Program-made: the position numbers and the translations under genes
In this document: one piece after another, positions 7,212 to 23,581 of the stretch
How the letters are laid out: each line of letters starts with the position of its first letter
How positions within the stretch are numbered: the stretch's first letter is position 1
Origin: Lysobacterales bacterium
Lineage (GTDB): Bacteria; Pseudomonadota; Gammaproteobacteria; Xanthomonadales; SZUA-36
Direction: 5' to 3'
Length of the DNA: 49,778 bases
Assembly: GCA_028289465.1 (NCBI GenBank)
Contig: JANQPM010000050.1
Span: forward strand, 1 to 49,778
Notes under the pieces: generated by a model
What the model saw: the letters and a program-made list of their open reading frames with translations, nothing else
Databases searched by the model: none
What the model was told of the DNA's origin: nothing

Positions 7212-7231
7212 TACTGTATATAATTACAGTT
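7212..7231 (+). promoter_or_regulatory. LexA (SOS) box of imuA-imuB
   Basis: TACTGTATATAATTACAGTT matches the gammaproteobacterial LexA consensus CTG-N10-CAG with AT-rich centre. A perfect -10 hexamer TATAAT (7219-7224) lies inside the box, which predicts transcription to begin at about 7230-7232, only two to four bases before the ATG at 7234. No Shine-Dalgarno sequence can fit between box and start. LexA bound here would block the promoter directly. Confidence 0.92.
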
Positions 7232-7233
7232 AT

Positions 7234-7896
7234 ATGCCCCTAGCCGACAACACCACGCTTCTGCGGCTGCAGCAAGAACTGACCACGGTCAAATACCGGC
7301 CGCAGGAAACCGGTCTGGCGACCGGCTATCAGGCGCTGGACCAGGCACTGCCTAGTAAAGGCTGGCCGACCGGTGCGGTGACTGAACTGCTGGTACCGCG
7401 GCTGGGCAGCGGCGAATTCCGCCTGCTGCTGCCGCTGCTGGCTGACATTACCGGCCGCGATCAGTGGATCGCGCTGGTGCGCCCGCCGTGGGTGCCGAAT
7501 CCGCATGCGCTGGCCGCAGCACAAGTGGACTTGCGACGGCTGCGCCTGATCCGTGCCAAGACCAGCAAAGACGCATTGTGGGCCACCGACCAGTTGCTGC
7601 GTTCCGGCGCTTTCAAAGCCGTGGTGGCGTGGCCTGAAGCATTGCCGGGAGCATCCATCCGAAAACTGCAACTGGCGGCCGAAAACGGCCGGTGTTGCGG
7701 TTTTCTGATTCGCTCCGACCGCCATATGCGACAGCACTCCATGGCGCCGCTGCGAATCCATCTAAAGCCTCGGTCCTTCTCTGAGGCCGAGTTTCTCCAC
7801 AACCCCTATCGCCTGGAACTGCAATTGCAAATCCTGAAGTGCCGCGGATTGCTGCACCAGCGCGAGTTGACGGTTGAAATGAACTTGTTGGAGTGA
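7234..7896 (+). CDS. imuA: SOS mutagenesis protein ImuA
   Basis: RecA-fold-like accessory protein of the ImuA-ImuB-DnaE2 translesion mutasome. At 220 residues it is the usual length. The motif TGYQALDQALPSKGWPTGAVTELL (about residues 30-53) is the family's N-terminal signature, and the region that would be the Walker A loop is degenerate (VPRLGSGEFRLLLPLL), as in other ImuA proteins. WIALVRPPWVPNPHAL and the VVAWPEALPG segment are also typical. The start lies two bases after the LexA box. imuB follows after six bases, so the two are co-transcribed under SOS control. Confidence 0.9.
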   Translation: MPLADNTTLLRLQQELTTVKYRPQETGLATGYQALDQALPSKGWPTGAVTELLVPRLGSGEFRLLLPLLADITGRDQWIALVRPPWVPNPHALAAAQVDLRRLRLIRAKTSKDALWATDQLLRSGAFKAVVAWPEALPGASIRKLQLAAENGRCCGFLIRSDRHMRQHSMAPLRIHLKPRSFSEAEFLHNPYRLELQLQILKCRGLLHQRELTVEMNLLE

Positions 7897-7902
7897 ATCG
7901 AA

Positions 7903-9300
7903 ATGCTCTGGCTGTGTCTTTATTTTCCGCACTGGCCGCTGCAAGTCGCCGAACGCGGTATCAAGCCCCAAAAGCCGCTGGTACTGGTGCGAAATGCGCG
8001 GGTCAGCCACGCCAACGCCAGCGCCCGGCAAACCGGCATCCGACCAGGTATGCGAACCGCGGCTGCCTATGCCCTGGCTGCCGGACTGGCGACCGCTCAG
8101 CGGGAACGATCCGCAGAACAGCAGGCATTGCAGCGGCTTGCGGCCTGGGCTTATCAATACAGCGACCGCATTCTGCTGGACCAGCAGGCGCTATTGATCG
8201 AAGCGGCCGGCAGCCTGAAGCTGTATGGCTCGTTACCGCAATTCATCGACATGCTGCAAACCGGCCTTAAACGGCTGGGCTACCGCTCGCGCATCGGCGT
8301 CGCGCCGACACCGGCCGCCGCCCGTGCATTTGCACCGCGGCAGACTATTGCGGTCGATCGAACGCAACTGCAGCAACATATTCAGCATCTGTCGCCGGCA
8401 GCGCTGCCGTTAACCGATGACCGCCGCCTGGCGCTGCAACAAACCGGCGTACCCGACCTGAAAACCCTGCTGCGCTTCAGTCCTGCTGAACTCAGGCGAC
8501 GCTTCGGCTCAGAGCTGACCAACTATCTGGCCCGGCTTACCGGCCAGCAACTGGATCCGCGCACCCCTTATCAGCCACCCAGCCGTTTCAAAAGCTACCT
8601 GAATCTGCCGGCCCCGATTCATATCGCCGAAGGCCTGCTGTTTGCCGCCCGAAGGTTGCTGGAAGAACTCTGCGGTTTCCTGACCGCCACAGATGCCGCG
8701 GCCAGCCGTATCGAATGGCGACTGGGGCACGAAGACCACCCCGCCTCCCGGTTCACTATCGAACTCAGCAGCCCCGACCGGGATCCGGCACGGTGGATGG
8801 TCATATTGCAGGAAAAACTGGTGAACTGGGAATTACCGGCGCCGATTGAAAAAATCAGCCTGCGTGCCGATCGTATTGTCAGTCACAAGCCCAGGCAAAA
8901 CGATTGGTTAGACCAATCAGGGGAAAAAGAAGCAACCGGGCGAGTGCTGGAACGCATCCAAACCCGTCTCGGTAAAGAATCTGTTACCGGTATTCATCAT
9001 CGGCAAGATTACTACCCAGAAAAATCATGGTGTTATCAAGTATTTGATGAAACCAGAAACCAGTCCCACCTAAGCACCCACCAGCCGCTATGGTTACTGC
9101 CACAGCCGGTTTCCATGCCGGATAAACCGAACCCTAGCGTTTCCGTAGCTATGCAGCAAATAAAAACAGGGTGGTGGAAACAAGAGGATTGGCCAACCAG
9201 AGTTTATTACATTAGCTCAGGTATTGAGTCCGGCGGTCTTCGCCTATGGGTGTATCAGACACCAAACGACAATTACTACCTGCAAGGGCTATACGACTAA
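7903..9300 (+). CDS. imuB: ImuB, catalytically inactive Y-family polymerase-like mutasome hub
   Basis: Y-family DNA polymerase homologue that bridges ImuA, the DnaE2 polymerase and the sliding clamp during error-prone bypass. It has 465 residues. The N-terminus (MLWLCLYFPHWPLQVAERG) lacks the catalytic Asp of active Pol IV/V, and the second acidic pair is missing around LLIEAAGSLKLYG, consistent with the family's non-catalytic role. The finger, little-finger and C-terminal regions are present, ending in the usual GLRLWVYQTP...YYLQGLYD. The last 400 bases are visibly AT-richer than the start of the gene, grading into the AT-rich insert that follows. Its stop overlaps the stop of the convergent protease gene (9297-9300). 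Confidence 0.92.
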   Translation: MLWLCLYFPHWPLQVAERGIKPQKPLVLVRNARVSHANASARQTGIRPGMRTAAAYALAAGLATAQRERSAEQQALQRLAAWAYQYSDRILLDQQALLIEAAGSLKLYGSLPQFIDMLQTGLKRLGYRSRIGVAPTPAAARAFAPRQTIAVDRTQLQQHIQHLSPAALPLTDDRRLALQQTGVPDLKTLLRFSPAELRRRFGSELTNYLARLTGQQLDPRTPYQPPSRFKSYLNLPAPIHIAEGLLFAARRLLEELCGFLTATDAAASRIEWRLGHEDHPASRFTIELSSPDRDPARWMVILQEKLVNWELPAPIEKISLRADRIVSHKPRQNDWLDQSGEKEATGRVLERIQTRLGKESVTGIHHRQDYYPEKSWCYQVFDETRNQSHLSTHQPLWLLPQPVSMPDKPNPSVSVAMQQIKTGWWKQEDWPTRVYYISSGIESGGLRLWVYQTPNDNYYLQGLYD

Positions 9301-10241
9301 GCTAACAAGCCATTCAGCAAGTTTGTTAAATCGAATTTTGATAAATCCACATAAAGCGAATAATACATATTGTCAACCGATGATCGCTTGCTCTCAACAG
9401 CCACACCGGCAATTTTTGGCGTCTCTTCGTTAACAATAACCAGCGGTGAACCGCTGTGGCCGGAATACGGACCTAAACCATTGGTGCGAGCAACTATATG
9501 CCAATTCGCCCAACCGTTCCCCCACCCTTCTGCAAAGAGCCCCTTAATATCATCAGGAATTATCGAAGAATCGGGCATTAACTCAACCACAACATCATTT
9601 TTCCGTTGCGCAAAAAGTGACCCCGGCTTTCCAAAACCAACGACAATCGCCAATTCGCCTTGTGCAACTGATTGAGTAACCTCACTACTGTCTGCAATAT
9701 CAATGAGTGAAAGTTCTCGAGATAAATGACCTCTATCACATAGCTTGAAGATCAAAATATCAAGATATGCGTTTTTTGTGGTCGTATAATTAATACCTCT
9801 TATTAGTCTTACCGTTCCCGCTCTTTTTCTGACCAAGCTATATGCTCGTTGCTCCATACAACAGAATTTTGATTGATCTACATATCCGGGTGATAAATTA
9901 TTACCTTCCAAATAAGCATGTGCGAATTCATTACCCATTAATTGATACAAGTGGCGGGCAGAAATCATCCAAGCACCCTTTCGTGTTGAGACAACAAAGC
10001 CGCTACCGCGTATTACAAAATTATTCACTGTGGGTATTCTTTCGGGCGTTTTAATAAGCGGGGTAGACCACAGCAGCCTTCCTTCGCATGTAATATGGCG
10101 GCACCTCTGAAGTACTGCCACGTTTTCACTATGGTTCCCTATTAAATGCCTTGCTCTCTCTATATTTCCCGGACAGCAAATTTCACTCAACCTGCCTTGA
10201 ATGTAGTCAATATCCGAATAAACCTTGCTACAGATAACCAC
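9297..10241 (-). CDS. Trypsin-like serine protease of unknown role
   Basis: A 314-residue chymotrypsin-fold (S1/DegP-like) protease. The three catalytic residues can be placed: His97 in WMISARHLY, Asp161 in AYLDILIFKL, and Ser263 in the loop YSGHSGSPLVI. The core begins with NNFVIRGSGFVVSTRKG, the usual first strand before the His. The start is GTG at 10241 with GGGAG seven bases upstream. I see no signal peptide, so it may act in the cytoplasm; the N-terminal 70 residues contain six Cys and match nothing I recognise. It is clearly AT-richer than the imu genes and is divergent from a lipoprotein gene. Sitting beside a CHAT protease-like gene, it could belong to a protease-based stress or defence module, but that is inference. 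Confidence 0.75.
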   Translation of the reverse strand: MVICSKVYSDIDYIQGRLSEICCPGNIERARHLIGNHSENVAVLQRCRHITCEGRLLWSTPLIKTPERIPTVNNFVIRGSGFVVSTRKGAWMISARHLYQLMGNEFAHAYLEGNNLSPGYVDQSKFCCMEQRAYSLVRKRAGTVRLIRGINYTTTKNAYLDILIFKLCDRGHLSRELSLIDIADSSEVTQSVAQGELAIVVGFGKPGSLFAQRKNDVVVELMPDSSIIPDDIKGLFAEGWGNGWANWHIVARTNGLGPYSGHSGSPLVIVNEETPKIAGVAVESKRSSVDNMYYSLYVDLSKFDLTNLLNGLLA

Positions 10242-10342
10242 TATATTTCTCCCTTGCTGTGTTCTCTTTAGGAGTAATAAGTGGGAAGAGCAGGCAACTT
10301 ATCTCACTAAGATCATTGACGCTATTAACCGGAGAAGACACA

Positions 10343-11134
10343 ATGAATCGTAAATACACCTTGTTTCTCTTGATTATCTTTTGCTCAAGTTGCTCTAATG
10401 ATTCAAAAGATGACTCGTCAATACCCGAAGACAAACGGATTACCTACCTTGGTCACACTATTAGTATCGATGACATAATCGATGAAAATCTAAAGTGCCA
10501 CATCAATCTGACCAAGACACAATCAGACCAACACACGCATGGGACACCTAGCGGAACCAAATCATGCCCGCAGCAGCCAGAGGAAGACCCAGCATCTGCA
10601 CGTAAATATTATGAGAGCTTCCTTGGCGAATGGGAGTTTTACCGTCGAGAAAAACCGCTTAGGTCACACTTTTTTATTGGAGGCATACTCACAGTTAGCT
10701 CTGCAGAAAGCTCAGATTCCAATGAATATCAGGTGAGTGGCGACCCACTTTTGCTTGGCGGCAAGCCTATACCTCCATGGCAAATAGAACAACAGCCCGC
10801 AAGTTTCATTTTTAACGAAAAAGAACTGGTCACCGGCTGGAATGTCAATGTGCTGACAGGTGACTATGAAGTAGATGGCTGCATTCATAAAGTAACCGCT
10901 CAGAGAGCAGCTTTCTTAAACGATGCCTATCATGAATACTGCGACACGCAATACCGGTATTCCAAAAAAAAACGAAAGCTATGCCGATATATTGCCAAAA
11001 CCGCACAAAAAGACAGCAAGCACTTAATATTTGAATTAGAAGGCCATACAACCACCAGCGAGTGCAATAAACACAAGCGTAACCACAACCATGCGGGTAT
11101 ACACGGCGGCACGGCCCACGGCGGACAGGACTAA
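10343..11134 (+). CDS. Predicted lipoprotein with His-rich tail, unknown function
   Basis: A 263-residue protein not matching any family I know. I start it at the ATG at 10343, with GGAGAAGA at 10331-10338 as ribosome binding site. It opens with a signal peptide (NRKYTLFLLIIF) ending in CSSC, which reads as a lipobox. The body is polar, with Cys residues that could pair, a YESFLGEWEFYRRE segment and a conserved-looking HFFIGGILTVSS strand. The last 30 residues are rich in His (HTTTSECNKHKRNHNHAG...), suggesting metal binding. The gene is AT-rich like the neighbouring protease and ends three bases from the convergent CHAT gene. It may be a cell-surface sensor or substrate for its neighbours; nothing shows this directly. 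Confidence 0.65.
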   Translation: MNRKYTLFLLIIFCSSCSNDSKDDSSIPEDKRITYLGHTISIDDIIDENLKCHINLTKTQSDQHTHGTPSGTKSCPQQPEEDPASARKYYESFLGEWEFYRREKPLRSHFFIGGILTVSSAESSDSNEYQVSGDPLLLGGKPIPPWQIEQQPASFIFNEKELVTGWNVNVLTGDYEVDGCIHKVTAQRAAFLNDAYHEYCDTQYRYSKKKRKLCRYIAKTAQKDSKHLIFELEGHTTTSECNKHKRNHNHAGIHGGTAHGGQD

Positions 11135-15231: not shown

Positions 15232-15251
15232 TACTGTATATATTTACAGTA
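15232..15251 (+). promoter_or_regulatory. LexA (SOS) box of dnaE2
   Basis: TACTGTATATATTTACAGTA differs at one position from the ideal TACTGTATATATATACAGTA. A -10 hexamer TATATT lies at 15239-15244, with TTGAGT at 15214-15219 as a possible -35 (19-base spacer). The start codon is two bases after the box, exactly as at imuA. Confidence 0.93.
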
Positions 15252-15253
15252 TT

Positions 15254-18200
15254 ATGCCTCTGCCCGACTATGCCGAACTGCATTGCCTGACCAATTTCAG
15301 CTTTTTGCGCGGCGCATCGCATGCCGAAGAACTGGTGAAACGCGCCTACGACATGGGCTACCGCGCATTGGCGATTACCGATGAGTGCTCCATGGCCGGC
15401 GCGGTACGGGCACACCGGGCCGCCAGAACGGTTCCGATACGCCTGATTATCGGCAGCGAATTCCGACTGGACGAGCTGCATCTGGTTTTACTGGCCACCG
15501 ATCACACCGGCTACAGCCAGCTTTGCCAGCTGATTACCACCGCCCGGCGGGCCGCTCCAAAAGGGGAATACCGGCTGACGCAAAAACAACTGGAATACGG
15601 CCTGGACCATTGCCTGGCGATCTGGGTTCCGGCGGATACGGTAGCCATGGCCAATGCGCCTGCCCGGCAGATGCTGGCAGCGACCGGCCGATGGCTAAAA
15701 CGGCACTTCGCCGGCCGGGCCTGGATCGGTGCAGCACTGCATCGCCGTTTCGACGACCGGCTGAAGTTAAGGCGGCTGATGCAGCTGGGCAATATCTGCG
15801 GTTTGCCGCTGACCGCCTGCGGCAGCGCGGTGATGCATCACCGGAGGCGCCATAAACTGGCCGACACGCTGACCGCGATCCGCCTGAATACTCCGGTGGC
15901 CGAAGCCGGTTTCGCGCTGGCCCCGAATGCCGAGCAGCACCTGCGCTGCAAACAAGAGCTGATTGCGCTGTACCCGGCCGAGTTGCTACAGGAATCGGTA
16001 CGCATCGCCGAACGCTGCCGCTTCTCGCTGGACGAACTGAATTACCAGTACCCGCATGAAGTTGTACCGCCCGGCAAAACGGCAACCCGGCACCTGCGCG
16101 AACTCACCGAAGCCGGAGTGAGGCGGCACTGGCCCGATGGGCCTTCCGATGAGATACGGCAGCAAATCGAGCACGAGCTGAACCTGATTGCCGAACTGCG
16201 CTACGAATCGTATTTTCTGACCATTCACGACATCGTCGAATACGCCCGCAGCCAGAACATCCTGTGTCAGGGCCGTGGTTCGGCGGCCAATTCCATCGTC
16301 TGTTTTTGCCTTGGCATCACCGCGGCCGACCCGAGCCGCATCGGCCTGCTGTTCGAGCGCTTTATCTCCCGTGAACGCAATGAACCGCCGGACATCGATG
16401 TGGATTTCGAGCACGAACGGCGCGAAGAAGTCATGCAATACGTCTACCGCAAATACGGCCGCCACCGGGCTGCGCTGTCGGCCACTGTCATTACCTATCG
16501 CCATAAAAGCGCGGTGCGCGACGTCGGCAAGGCTCTGGGCATCGATCCGGATCAATTGCAGCAGTTATCCGACAACCTGGCCTGGTGGGACCGGCCGGAA
16601 ACCTTCGCCCGCCAGATCACCGAGGCCGGCTTTGATCTCAACAGCCACATCATGAAGTTGTTCTTTGAACTGGTGGACGAGATTTGCGGCTTTCCGCGCC
16701 ATCTGTCCCAGCATGTCGGCGGCTTTGTGATCGCCGAACAACCGCTGAACACCCTGGTGCCGGTGGAAAATGCGACCATGCCCGACCGGACCGTGATCCA
16801 GTGGGATAAGGACGATCTGGAAAGCCTGGGCCTGCTCAAAGTGGACTGCCTCGCGCTGGGCATGCTGACCGCCCTGCACCGCTGCTTCGATCTGATACAG
16901 CTATACCATGCTCACACGGTCAATCTGCTGACCATTCCAGAAGGCGATAAGCCGACTTACCGCATGATCCAGCAGGCCGATACCATCGGCGTCTTTCAAA
17001 TCGAATCGCGCGCCCAGCAGGCCATGCTGCCGCGGCTGAAGCCGGCCAATTACTACGACCTGGTGATTGAAATCGCCATCGTCCGGCCCGGCCCGATCCA
17101 GGGCAATATGGTGCACCCCTATCTGAAGCGCAGAGACGGCCTGGAACAGCCGGACGTGCCGAAGCCGGAATTATGGGCGGTGCTGGAAAAAACCCTGGGT
17201 GTGCCTATTTTTCAAGAGCAGGCGATGAAAATCGCTATGGTCGCGGCCGGCTTCAGCGCCGGCGAGGCCGATGCATTGCGGCGCGCAATGGCGGCCTGGA
17301 AGCGGCGCGGCGGCCTGGAGCCGTTTCGCGACAAGCTGATCAACGGCATGCTGAAAAACGGCTACCAGAAGGATTACGCCGAGCGCATCTATGAACAGAT
17401 CAAAGGCTTTGGCGACTATGGCTTTCCGGAATCCCATTCAGCCAGCTTCGCGATCCTGGCCTATGCCTCGGCCTACCTGAAATGCCACTACCCGGCTGCG
17501 TTCACCTGCGCGTTACTGAACAGCCAGCCGATGGGCTTCTACTCGCCGGCACAGTTAATTAAAGATGCGCAGCGCCACCGGGTCCGCATGCTGCCGGTGG
17601 ACGTACGCTATAGCGATGCGCTGGCCACACTGACCGACGATACCCGTCAGGGCCGGCGGCATGCGATTAAACAACCGGCGATCCGTCTCGGCCTGGTCAC
17701 CGTCAAAGGCCTGAGTAAGCCGGCCATCGAACGGTTGGTCGAAGCCCGCCGCGAATCGCCGTTCCGATCCGTACAAGATTTGGTCGACCGCAGCCGCCTA
17801 TCGCAAAAAGACCGGCATGCACTGGCCAGATCCGGTGCGCTGCGCGGCCTGGCCGGGCACCGCCACCGGGCTTACTGGCAAACGCTGGCCGCGCGCCCGC
17901 AGACCGGGCTGCTGCGCGGCACCGAAATCAGCGAACCGCATACGCCGATGCGGCCGCCCGATGCCATTCAGAATCTATGGGCGGACTATAACGCGACCGG
18001 CCTCAGCCTGAACGACCACCCGATGCGGCTGCTGCGCGGCCGCATTCAGCAGATCGCCCGTCGCCGCACCGTATCCGCGACCGCACTGACCCAATGCGAA
18101 CATGGCCGCGCGCTTTATGTCGCCGGGCTGACCACCAACCGCCAGCGGCCGCAAACCGCCAGAGGCGTGATTTTTCTGACTCTGGAGGATGACACCGGCC

Positions 18201-18388
18201 TGATCAATGTGGTGGTCTGGCCGGATCTGGTCGAACGGCAGCGCAAGACCCTGCTCGGCGCGCGCTTAATGGGCGTCGAAGGCCGCCTGGAAACCGAGGG
18301 CAGCGTATTTCACTTGATCGCGCACCGGCTGGACGACCACAGCGGCCTGATCCGCCGGCTGCCGGTACGGTCGCGGGATTTTCAGTAG
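15254..18388 (+). CDS. dnaE2: Error-prone DNA polymerase DnaE2
   Basis: C-family polymerase that does SOS-induced translesion synthesis with ImuA and ImuB. It has 1044 residues, typical for DnaE2 and shorter than replicative DnaE. The N-terminal PHP domain starts with YAELHCLTNFSFLRGASH; the palm has GRGSAANSIVCFCLGIT and the catalytic PDIDVDFEHERREEV (about residues 376-390). The fingers follow with SATVITYRHKSAVRDVGKAL. PIFQEQAMKIAMVAAGFSAGEADALRRAM and GFGDYGFPESHSASFAILAYASAYLK are strong signatures. A C-terminal OB domain (about 950-1030) carries VIFLTLEDDTGLINVVVWP. It starts two bases after its own LexA box. It is separated from imuB by about 6 kb, although these genes commonly form one operon. 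Confidence 0.96.
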   Translation: MPLPDYAELHCLTNFSFLRGASHAEELVKRAYDMGYRALAITDECSMAGAVRAHRAARTVPIRLIIGSEFRLDELHLVLLATDHTGYSQLCQLITTARRAAPKGEYRLTQKQLEYGLDHCLAIWVPADTVAMANAPARQMLAATGRWLKRHFAGRAWIGAALHRRFDDRLKLRRLMQLGNICGLPLTACGSAVMHHRRRHKLADTLTAIRLNTPVAEAGFALAPNAEQHLRCKQELIALYPAELLQESVRIAERCRFSLDELNYQYPHEVVPPGKTATRHLRELTEAGVRRHWPDGPSDEIRQQIEHELNLIAELRYESYFLTIHDIVEYARSQNILCQGRGSAANSIVCFCLGITAADPSRIGLLFERFISRERNEPPDIDVDFEHERREEVMQYVYRKYGRHRAALSATVITYRHKSAVRDVGKALGIDPDQLQQLSDNLAWWDRPETFARQITEAGFDLNSHIMKLFFELVDEICGFPRHLSQHVGGFVIAEQPLNTLVPVENATMPDRTVIQWDKDDLESLGLLKVDCLALGMLTALHRCFDLIQLYHAHTVNLLTIPEGDKPTYRMIQQADTIGVFQIESRAQQAMLPRLKPANYYDLVIEIAIVRPGPIQGNMVHPYLKRRDGLEQPDVPKPELWAVLEKTLGVPIFQEQAMKIAMVAAGFSAGEADALRRAMAAWKRRGGLEPFRDKLINGMLKNGYQKDYAERIYEQIKGFGDYGFPESHSASFAILAYASAYLKCHYPAAFTCALLNSQPMGFYSPAQLIKDAQRHRVRMLPVDVRYSDALATLTDDTRQGRRHAIKQPAIRLGLVTVKGLSKPAIERLVEARRESPFRSVQDLVDRSRLSQKDRHALARSGALRGLAGHRHRAYWQTLAARPQTGLLRGTEISEPHTPMRPPDAIQNLWADYNATGLSLNDHPMRLLRGRIQQIARRRTVSATALTQCEHGRALYVAGLTTNRQRPQTARGVIFLTLEDDTGLINVVVWPDLVERQRKTLLGARLMGVEGRLETEGSVFHLIAHRLDDHSGLIRRLPVRSRDFQ

Positions 18389-21820: not shown

Positions 21821-22050
21821 TTCGCTGTTTGCTGCGCAAGCTGTAGTGAGTTCATTTCTTTGTCTTGCAACAAAGAAACGAACCAAAGAAAATGCAACCC
21901 GCACAGCGGCCTCCGCTACGCTACGGCTCCCCGTTTCATCAGGCTGCTTTGTGGCGTCGGTTTGAGAGCACATCCCTGCGCTCGCAAACCTAAAATTTCC
22001 TCCTGAAATTTTCCACCAGTCACAACCTGATGAAACGGCGCTGTGCAGGG
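21821..22050 (+). repeat. Structured repeat, left copy (plus orientation)
   Basis: An element of about 230 bases that recurs, inverted, at 23303-23516. It folds into a string of hairpins: 21827-21832 with 21836-21841; 21855-21863 (TTTCTTTGT) with 21870-21878; 21959-21964 plus 21966-21969 with 21980-21983 plus 21985-21990; 21992-21999 (AAAATTTC) with 22005-22012. The last two are enclosed by a long stem, 21931-21943 (CCGTTTCATCAGG) with 22026-22038, continued by 21901-21908 (GCACAGCG) with 22039-22046. Short open frames across it do not look like genes. Confidence 0.85.
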
Positions 22051-22174
22051 CCTACTAAATCCCGGAAATCAGGGAGTCGAGAAGCATTCCATTCTTGCCA
22101 GGATCGTCACATCAAATTCCCGATGTACTCCAATTAAGCTCTAATGTCAGTCATGATACGTGATCCTCAGTATG

Positions 22175-23152
22175 TCAGCTAGATGGCTTTGTAGCCCATG
22201 GTCTCATACCTACTCTGTTCCAGTGTTCACGTAGTGCATCATCTAACGGTCTAATATCGGAAAGAGCGATCTGCTCCCCGTGGTGAGCGACGAGTTCGCG
22301 AACCACAGGAGAGTCTGTACCACGCTCACACGGATTCACGAACACTCTGAATCGCTCATCCAGTGTGAAAAGGCCAAGCTCGAAGGCTTTATCATGCTGA
22401 AGGCAAAGACAAAGACCATTTCCCATATGGCCACGTAACGTTTCATTGTCGCTCCAGCGTGCAATATGAGCTCCAACAAGAAAACGGGGATCGGTCATCT
22501 TACATCTGGGGAAACAGCATCGGTTTCCATAGAGTTTTCTGATCGCAAATGAGAAATGTGTCTGCCCAAGACGGGAGCGCACAGTAGATACTTGCGTTCC
22601 CGTCTGAATAGAAACGACAGTCTTTCCATCAGCATGGGAAACAATGTCACCAGAACCGAAGAGCGCAATGAGGAGCTCCTCATCTGCATCGGAAAGGTAC
22701 GCACCGTTAAGGCACTGAAGTCGTCCGGTTTGTCGGACGAAGAAGATATTCAGCTTGTCCTTCCCGCGATCTCGATTTGCATCAAAGTACTGCTCCAGCT
22801 CGGTCCTTCTGGCTTGGAAAATCTCTACCAGATTCACGGGTTGATGAAATGGGATGAAATCTGTGAGGTCAGCACGATAGAACGTGGGAGCATAGTCCCA
22901 CCCTTTCGGATCTGGCGGGCGCCGAGTTGATCGGAAACCGTCGCCGGATGCGATGGAGTATCCAATGAAGTTTGCGTCAGGAGTCTTGCTACGCAAGTGG
23001 AGAATAGTGTCACCTTGCCGTACATCAAGTATTTTGCTCCAAAAGGGCCATGATCCACCGCCGCGTTTCTCGGTTGGAGCCCACACACAGTTGGTGAATG
23101 CCCATGTTCCGCCACCATGGACTTCATCTCTAGACATTTCGATATAAATCAT
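22175..23152 (-). CDS. HNH endonuclease with PUA/EVE-like N-terminal domain
   Basis: A 325-residue protein in two parts. The C-terminal part (about residues 195-300) is an HNH nuclease of the restriction type: RCCFPRC, then VGAHIARW (His229), then MGNGLCLCLQHDKAF (Asn245, His253). The N-terminal part (about 1-140) has TWAFTNCVWAP, WSKILDVRQGDTILHL and FIGYSIASGDGF. That strand order and the GD turn resemble the PUA/EVE superfamily, members of which read modified bases in type IV restriction enzymes. From this I infer a modification-dependent DNA cutter used against phage. The gene is AT-richer than its neighbours and is preceded by an AT-rich promoter region (23153-23296). It is the only gene between the two structured repeats. 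No methylase gene accompanies it. Confidence 0.75.
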   Translation of the reverse strand: MIYIEMSRDEVHGGGTWAFTNCVWAPTEKRGGGSWPFWSKILDVRQGDTILHLRSKTPDANFIGYSIASGDGFRSTRRPPDPKGWDYAPTFYRADLTDFIPFHQPVNLVEIFQARRTELEQYFDANRDRGKDKLNIFFVRQTGRLQCLNGAYLSDADEELLIALFGSGDIVSHADGKTVVSIQTGTQVSTVRSRLGQTHFSFAIRKLYGNRCCFPRCKMTDPRFLVGAHIARWSDNETLRGHMGNGLCLCLQHDKAFELGLFTLDERFRVFVNPCERGTDSPVVRELVAHHGEQIALSDIRPLDDALREHWNRVGMRPWATKPSS

Positions 23153-23302
23153 TTCTCTGAGCTAACTATAAATATTCAGACCTGTTAATCATAAAGACTA
23201 TTTTTTTTCGTTATACAGATAAAACTTTTTTAGCTATTTGATCCCCTTAATAGTGGCTTATTAAGAATCAAGCAAATCCCGAAGGCTTGCAAATCTCTCC
23301 CT

Positions 23303-23516
23303 GTACAGCGCCGATTCCTCAGTTGGCGACTGGTGAAAAAATTCAGGATGAATTTTTAGGCTTGCTAGCACAGGGATGTGCTATCAAGCCGACGCCACAA
23401 AGCCAATTGAGGAATCGGGAAGCCGAAGGCCGCTGTACTGGGACACGTTTTCTTTGGTTCGTTTCTTTGTCGTGCGACAAAGAAATGAACTCGCCATAGC
23501 TTGCAAAGCAAGCGGC
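23303..23516 (-). repeat. Structured repeat, right copy (minus orientation)
   Basis: The inverted counterpart of 21821-22050. Its stems are at equivalent places: 23499-23504 with 23508-23513; 23462-23472 with 23475-23485; 23359-23364 plus 23366-23372 with 23377-23383 plus 23385-23390; 23337-23344 (AAAAATTC) with 23350-23357. The long closing stem is 23311-23326 with 23403-23418, continued by 23303-23310 (GTACAGCG) with 23431-23438. Several stem positions differ from the left copy on both arms at once, keeping the pairing. Confidence 0.85.
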
Positions 23517-23581
23517 GAAAAAACAAATAAAAACTTAGAAAATCAAAGATCGACTTAAGAAACCAAACACCCCAACCAAAC

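Follow-up and report, generated by a model that had tools for sequence, protein, structure and literature searches.

The window, a 49,778-nucleotide stretch of a Lysobacterales genome, contains a gene for a 325-aa protein flanked by two inverted copies of a structured repeat. Blast of the left copy (21821-22050, + strand) against the 2.95 Mb genome returned exactly two sites, itself and an inverted copy at 23299-23519 (- strand; 78% identity, E 5e-50). The inverted-repeat arms (130 nt at 82% and 74 nt at 85% identity) exceeded every other inverted repeat in the window by a wide margin. Blast and repeat search bore out the inverted pair of about 220-230-base repeats described by an earlier, sequence-only reading of this DNA. 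Both copies are real, although their fold extends further outward than that reading had drawn it, through S1 and the terminal hairpins to about 21823 and 23517. Rather than two separate repeats, they appear to be the ends of one unit with an HNH gene inside. The element ends are located with an uncertainty of a few tens of bases. The features are as follows.

21823..22050, minus strand: left half of the putative cassette; folded strand minus, outward is leftward (blast, fold and strand tests)
21823..21849, minus strand: left terminal hairpin, farthest out in the left half (sequence, fold)
21850..21883, minus strand: left S1 hairpin, GTTCATTTCTTTGT/ACAAAGAAACGAAC in plus-strand letters, with one A.C that is G.U on the minus strand (covariation)
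21865..21869, minus strand: left S2 strand TTGCA inside the S1 loop, predicted to pair with 21893-21897 as a pseudoknot (loop complementarity, covariation)
21884..21892, minus strand: left L1, sense UUUUCUUUG, proposed third strand in the S1 major groove (mirror test)
21893..21897, minus strand: left S2 partner strand TGCAA (loop complementarity, covariation)
21931..21943, minus strand: left inner closing stem, first arm CCGTTTCATCAGG, partner at 22026-22038 (two-copy alignment)
21959..21990, minus strand: left hairpin GGTTTG..CAAACC, sense loop region with GGGA (fold, GGA-loop counts)
22175..23152, minus strand: cargo gene, 325-aa protein with a C-terminal HNH_2 nuclease domain (Pfam PF13391, E 3e-6, above cut-off)
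23299..23517, plus strand: right half of the putative cassette, inverted copy; folded strand plus, outward is rightward (blast, fold and strand tests)
23444..23447, plus strand: right S2 strand CACG, predicted to pair with CGTG at 23471-23474 (loop complementarity, covariation)
23448..23457, plus strand: right L1 TTTTCTTTGG, proposed third strand (covariation, mirror test)
23457..23490, plus strand: right S1 hairpin GTTCGTTTCTTTGT/ACAAAGAAATGAAC (loop complementarity, covariation)
23492..23517, plus strand: right terminal hairpin CGCC..GGCG, then an A-rich flank (sequence, fold)

Residues 180-314 of the cargo protein matched PADLOC HNH restriction-type profiles (E 2e-23), and the cargo is probably a restriction-type defence gene. 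The GC content of spacer and gene was 47-50%, compared with 59% for the window. Genomes of the class shared just the C-terminal HNH part of the protein, and no relatives were found in the viral contigs or plasmids searched. In same-family relatives the neighbouring acylphosphatase/thioredoxin region matched while the HNH gene did not, and the module was nearly absent. Single-sequence structure prediction of the protein was unusable (mean pLDDT 31).

Each copy folded into hairpins plus a closing stem, with the previously named stems present. Compared with dinucleotide shuffles, fold stability reached z-scores of -8.3 (left) and -11.7 (right), and 0 of 200 shuffles were as stable. The closing stem reads CCGTTTCATCAGG/CCTGATGAAACGG on the left and CCGATTCCTCAATTGG/CCAACTGAGGAATCGG on the right, where one A.C is left that corresponds to G.U on the opposite strand. 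The AT stem changes from AAAATTTC/GAAATTTT to AAAATTC/GAATTTT in the other copy, and a third stem from GGTTTG/CAAACC to GGCTTG/CAAGCC. The compensatory changes claimed for these stems held up in the two-copy alignment, in which 8 body pairs had changed on both sides, 4 had changed on one side and still paired, and none was broken. Over all pairs tested 2.6 double changes were expected, and 0 of 20000 placements reached the observed count, which in this test was 11 rather than 8, as it included a doubtful outermost pair and two of five pseudoknot pairs held in the wrong register. In the right register, the pseudoknot contributed three more doubly changed pairs between the window copies and one lost pair.

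On the outward strand, the outer module follows the order S2 - UUUCUUUGG - S1 5' arm - loop - S1 3' arm. In most copies the S1 loop was complementary to the bases preceding L1 despite changing letters, with a mean run of 4.17 compared with 3.12 when partners were shuffled (maximum of 200 shuffles, 3.32). Among 20 sequences from many genera, pairing cells amounted to 93.7% (79.3% in shuffles), and double changes occurred in every one of the five S2 pairs and in five S1 pairs. The structural claim survived in these further copies: their covariation score of 0.358, counted like the variants over related, phylogenetically non-independent sequences, exceeded all 500 shuffles (0.111) and all slid partners (<=0.117). 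These computations show at each end a predicted H-type pseudoknot, in which S2 joins the S1 loop to the bases beyond L1.

L1 itself covaries with S1. In lineages with an asymmetric S1 (e.g. UUUCUCUU/AAGAGAAA, UUUCUUUU/AAAAGAAA and UUUUCUUU/AAAGAAAA), the U-rich L1 changed so as to mirror the 5' arm of S1. A full mirror was present in 24 of 28 distinct asymmetric combinations and a direct repeat in 1 of 28. When rows differing only by an extra C were merged, 22 of 26 combinations were mirrors; random re-pairing of L1 and S1 gave 5.0 on average and at most 12. U.A-U and C+.G-C triples call for a parallel pyrimidine strand, which a mirror L1 would supply; this relation is the signature of a pyrimidine-motif triple helix. 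We propose from this covariation that L1 lies as a parallel third strand in the S1 major groove. The S1 tract of the window, UUUCUUU, is mirror-symmetric, so that the window alone provides no test of the triplex. A site combining S1 and L1 occurred 68 times in the 0.70 Mb of fetched loci and never in three Markov resamplings; because the loci were fetched for carrying the module, this count shows specificity rather than frequency. It is rare for a triple helix to be argued from sequence alone, as this three-way covariation allows.

Triple-helix pseudoknots are known from telomerase RNA and from the SAM-II and preQ1-II riboswitches, alongside the ENE elements of viral and transposon RNAs. Here, as in telomerase RNA, L1 of the H-type pseudoknot would run across the deep groove of its second stem. 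The present ends would resemble these structures in that the stem is rich in A-U and its major groove takes up a U-rich strand in parallel Hoogsteen geometry, but differ in forming inverted pairs in bacterial intergenic DNA. They also differ in lacking an Rfam match: no family was found at gathering score or E-value thresholds. The core sequence had no match in the open-access literature searched either, in agreement with the earlier reading, to which no named element with such a layout was known. The STAXI motif (PMC2864571) likewise consists of repeated pseudoknots near DNA-handling genes; its copies are in tandem rather than inverted, and it too is set apart by the Rfam result.

The folded strand could be distinguished from its complement. 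Departures from Watson-Crick pairing in the variable arm of S1, read on the outward strand, comprised 54 G.U and 6 A.C. Apical loops contained GGA 142 times in sense (outward) and 44 times in antisense. The minimum free energy was lower for the sense strand in 53 of 74 cases, the outward strand being 5.4 kcal/mol better, while flanking controls had the opposite sign. The G.U/A.C asymmetry and the GGA-loop bias indicate that one single strand is selected. The fold had been thought to be selected as RNA or as extruded DNA; selection stands, whereas a symmetrical cruciform does not agree with these two biases. The selected form would so be a single strand, either RNA or ssDNA. G.T wobbles and pyrimidine triplexes exist in DNA as well as RNA. 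Our guess is RNA, at slightly better than even odds, with ssDNA appreciably less probable.

Compensation might also arise without selection, through template switching that copies the arms onto each other as in quasipalindrome correction. Long, near-perfectly complementary arms are the usual substrate of that process. It is nevertheless contradicted by the pairing of a loop with downstream bases, by the mirror relation of L1 and by the one-sided preference for G.U, none of which it is expected to yield, and we consider it very improbable.

The loop bias is also what a regulatory RNA family, such as a CsrA/RsmA decoy that chances to occur as inverted pairs, could leave behind. The sense GGA loops were distributed over 66 of 105 sequences, and their commonest form has an A two bases upstream. 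In sense, ACAGGGATGT or GCAGGGATGT is found in each of the two window copies, and the GGGA in the sense loop region of the left hairpin (21959..21990) resembles the CsrA/RsmA consensus. The genome encodes CsrA, and weak sub-threshold Rfam matches were to RsmW and TwoAYGGAY. The GGA loops and the csrA gene suggest a possible decoy role. As an account of the whole element, however, a decoy leaves the paired unit and its passenger genes unexplained. Clostridia copies are without GGA loops by eye, the window element has no promoter match, and its genome holds two copies only. We regard this alternative as improbable.

Proteobacterial genomes commonly contain repeats of this general kind, and annotation of such repeats tends to yield short spurious proteins. 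When the S1 module was searched for with a covariance model (E<=1e-5), it was detected in 81 of 398 genomes of the phylum and 39 of 213 genera. A stricter pattern matched 23 of 369 genomes of the class, with 0 matches of the reversed control pattern in the genomes listed, and the exact pattern, which was too narrow, gave 9 stretches in genome contigs. The same module was found in Clostridia MAG contigs and in one Flammeovirgaceae (Bacteroidota) MAG contig, where MAG contamination is possible. The Clostridia contigs L081-L088, which come from roe deer, share the core module but have tails of their own. Against 72,556 plasmids the query element produced a single short match, and against 50,697 phages it produced none; a plasmid or phage origin was rejected on these counts.

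Pairing recurred in other genomes. An outward-facing inverted partner was present on the predicted side at 31 of 36 newly fetched loci, mostly with 0.33-0.6 kb between end modules and no gene inside. No same-orientation partner occurred within 8 kb in the earlier locus set. In genus g292, every element combined one A-type and one B-type end, with the exception of L257, whose types were unclear. Identities there were mostly 77-94% for A-A, 75-96% for B-B and 61-70% for A-B, and A and B ends also occurred at gaps of 1.34 or 2.2 kb, an interval that may hold a gene. The pair in genome G280 was absent as a whole at the orthologous site of G410, G411, G412 and G376, where both flanks align. This is one site, and as the relatives are 78-91% identical it does not fix the exact ends; the absence may instead reflect loss in the relatives.

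Several intervals enclosed genes, including AbiU2 in G376, an ion channel in G137 and a NIPSNAP gene at 0.9 kb spacing. Two longer intervals contain candidate cargo. At L191 (G095:C11, 297-6561), ends of 89% identity bound a 6.25 kb interval with a trypsin-like protease (LmuA-like profile), an IS110 transposase and a 176-aa protein without assignment, and in G163 a two-partner secretion locus lies in a 9.9 kb interval. Cargo restricted to defence was not supported, since NIPSNAP, the ion channel, the secretion locus and IS110 also lie between ends.

We read 21823-23517 as a non-autonomous cassette with folded-strand ends that is moved in trans, with a probability of about 0.6. It would be a single unit of ~1.7 kb, in which two inverted structured ends surround a single passenger gene. 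Each end would be a folded strand read outward, from a closed body with hairpins through a pseudoknot with a third strand to a terminal hairpin. The pair may have moved together, the folded ends being read by an enzyme provided in trans. Against this, target-site duplication was not detected (flank matches 6.7, 6.4 in the shuffled control, with ends not exactly known). Neither a transposase common to carriers nor a parent IS with the same ends was found, in a genome-wide survey that covered Y1 only, and near-absence from plasmids and phages is not typical of an active transposon.

MITEs and mobile insertion cassettes (MIC; PMC5444012, PMC6542083) share with the present element the non-autonomous inverted ends, the optional passenger gene and the lack of the element from the corresponding site in relatives, as for the G280 pair. 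They differ from it in target duplication and may do so in a parent IS, and the ends here are structured single strands. The MITE-like intergenic repeat families R0, R2, R178 and R200 of Pseudomonas fluorescens (PMC2718517) are also relevant. R200, of 320 bp, may overlap or belong to the present repeats, as judged by description rather than consensus, and the available portion of that source describes no pseudoknot or triplex for these families.

REPINs/BIMEs are the other close comparison, as inverted pairs that form one non-coding, intergenic, chromosomal unit in many bacteria. The window element could be a giant relative, with folded ends recognised as ssDNA by an HUH transposase (Y1/RAYT-type) in trans. 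Its inverted pairs, its chromosomal, intergenic location, the absence of target duplication and the capacity of DNA for the same wobbles and triplexes would fit. Moreover, L245 (G767, 9819-10361) encloses a divergent Y1-like transposase gene, below the Pfam cut-off, and copy L192 is near an IS200-type gene. However, REPINs are built from short REP palindromes and mobilised by RAYT, whereas the ends here are several times that size (about 220-230 nt), with several hairpins, a pseudoknot and a proposed triplex. The genome itself has 0 Y1_Tnp genes, and the module was present in the fetched flanks of 0 of 25 Y1 genes from 18 carrier genomes, by which RAYT/IS200 was rejected as a general partner. 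We consider this version rather unlikely, though more credible than the decoy.

Location between genes and very stable folds would also suit intergenic punctuation, a 3'-end protector or terminator-like barrier spread by recombination. Neighbouring genes, however, showed no orientation bias (downstream genes 37 away and 39 towards, from a crude ORF call), on which a 3'UTR or terminator role was rejected, and the window element had neither a terminator match nor a T-run terminator at its ends. The probability we give to punctuation is low.

We advance tentatively, and with limited confidence, the possibility of a widespread unnamed mobile element whose triple-helix pseudoknot RNA ends guide or protect the moving copy, through recognition at the RNA level, and which picks up single genes, including defence-type ones. 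Recognising the repeats as paired units, with a pseudoknot that is conserved and a third strand of triplex type, makes anonymous repeats open to testing. It raises the questions of what reads the fold, whether it acts as RNA or ssDNA, and how single genes (nucleases, AbiU2) enter between the ends.

Some loci departed from the usual arrangement. Tandem direct copies of the module were seen in G717 and family f208 at spacings of about 250 bp, and at G717:C8 (268958-270043), G656:C107 and G677:C157 at about 250-320 bp; those of G717 sit symmetrically on both sides of a pair. One inward-facing pair was seen in G755. In G120, a second palindromic repeat, GTCATTCC.GCGAAAG.GGAATCCAG, often flanks the copies (L101-L107).

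Elsewhere in the window, 9200-10700 is AT-rich (41-43% GC, mean 59%) and possibly foreign. A 37-bp direct repeat, TACTGTATATA.TTACAGT, occurs at 7212-7248 and 15232-15268 with 84% identity and looks like a LexA/SOS box. Its second copy lies just upstream of a DnaE2-type polymerase ORF (15254-18388).
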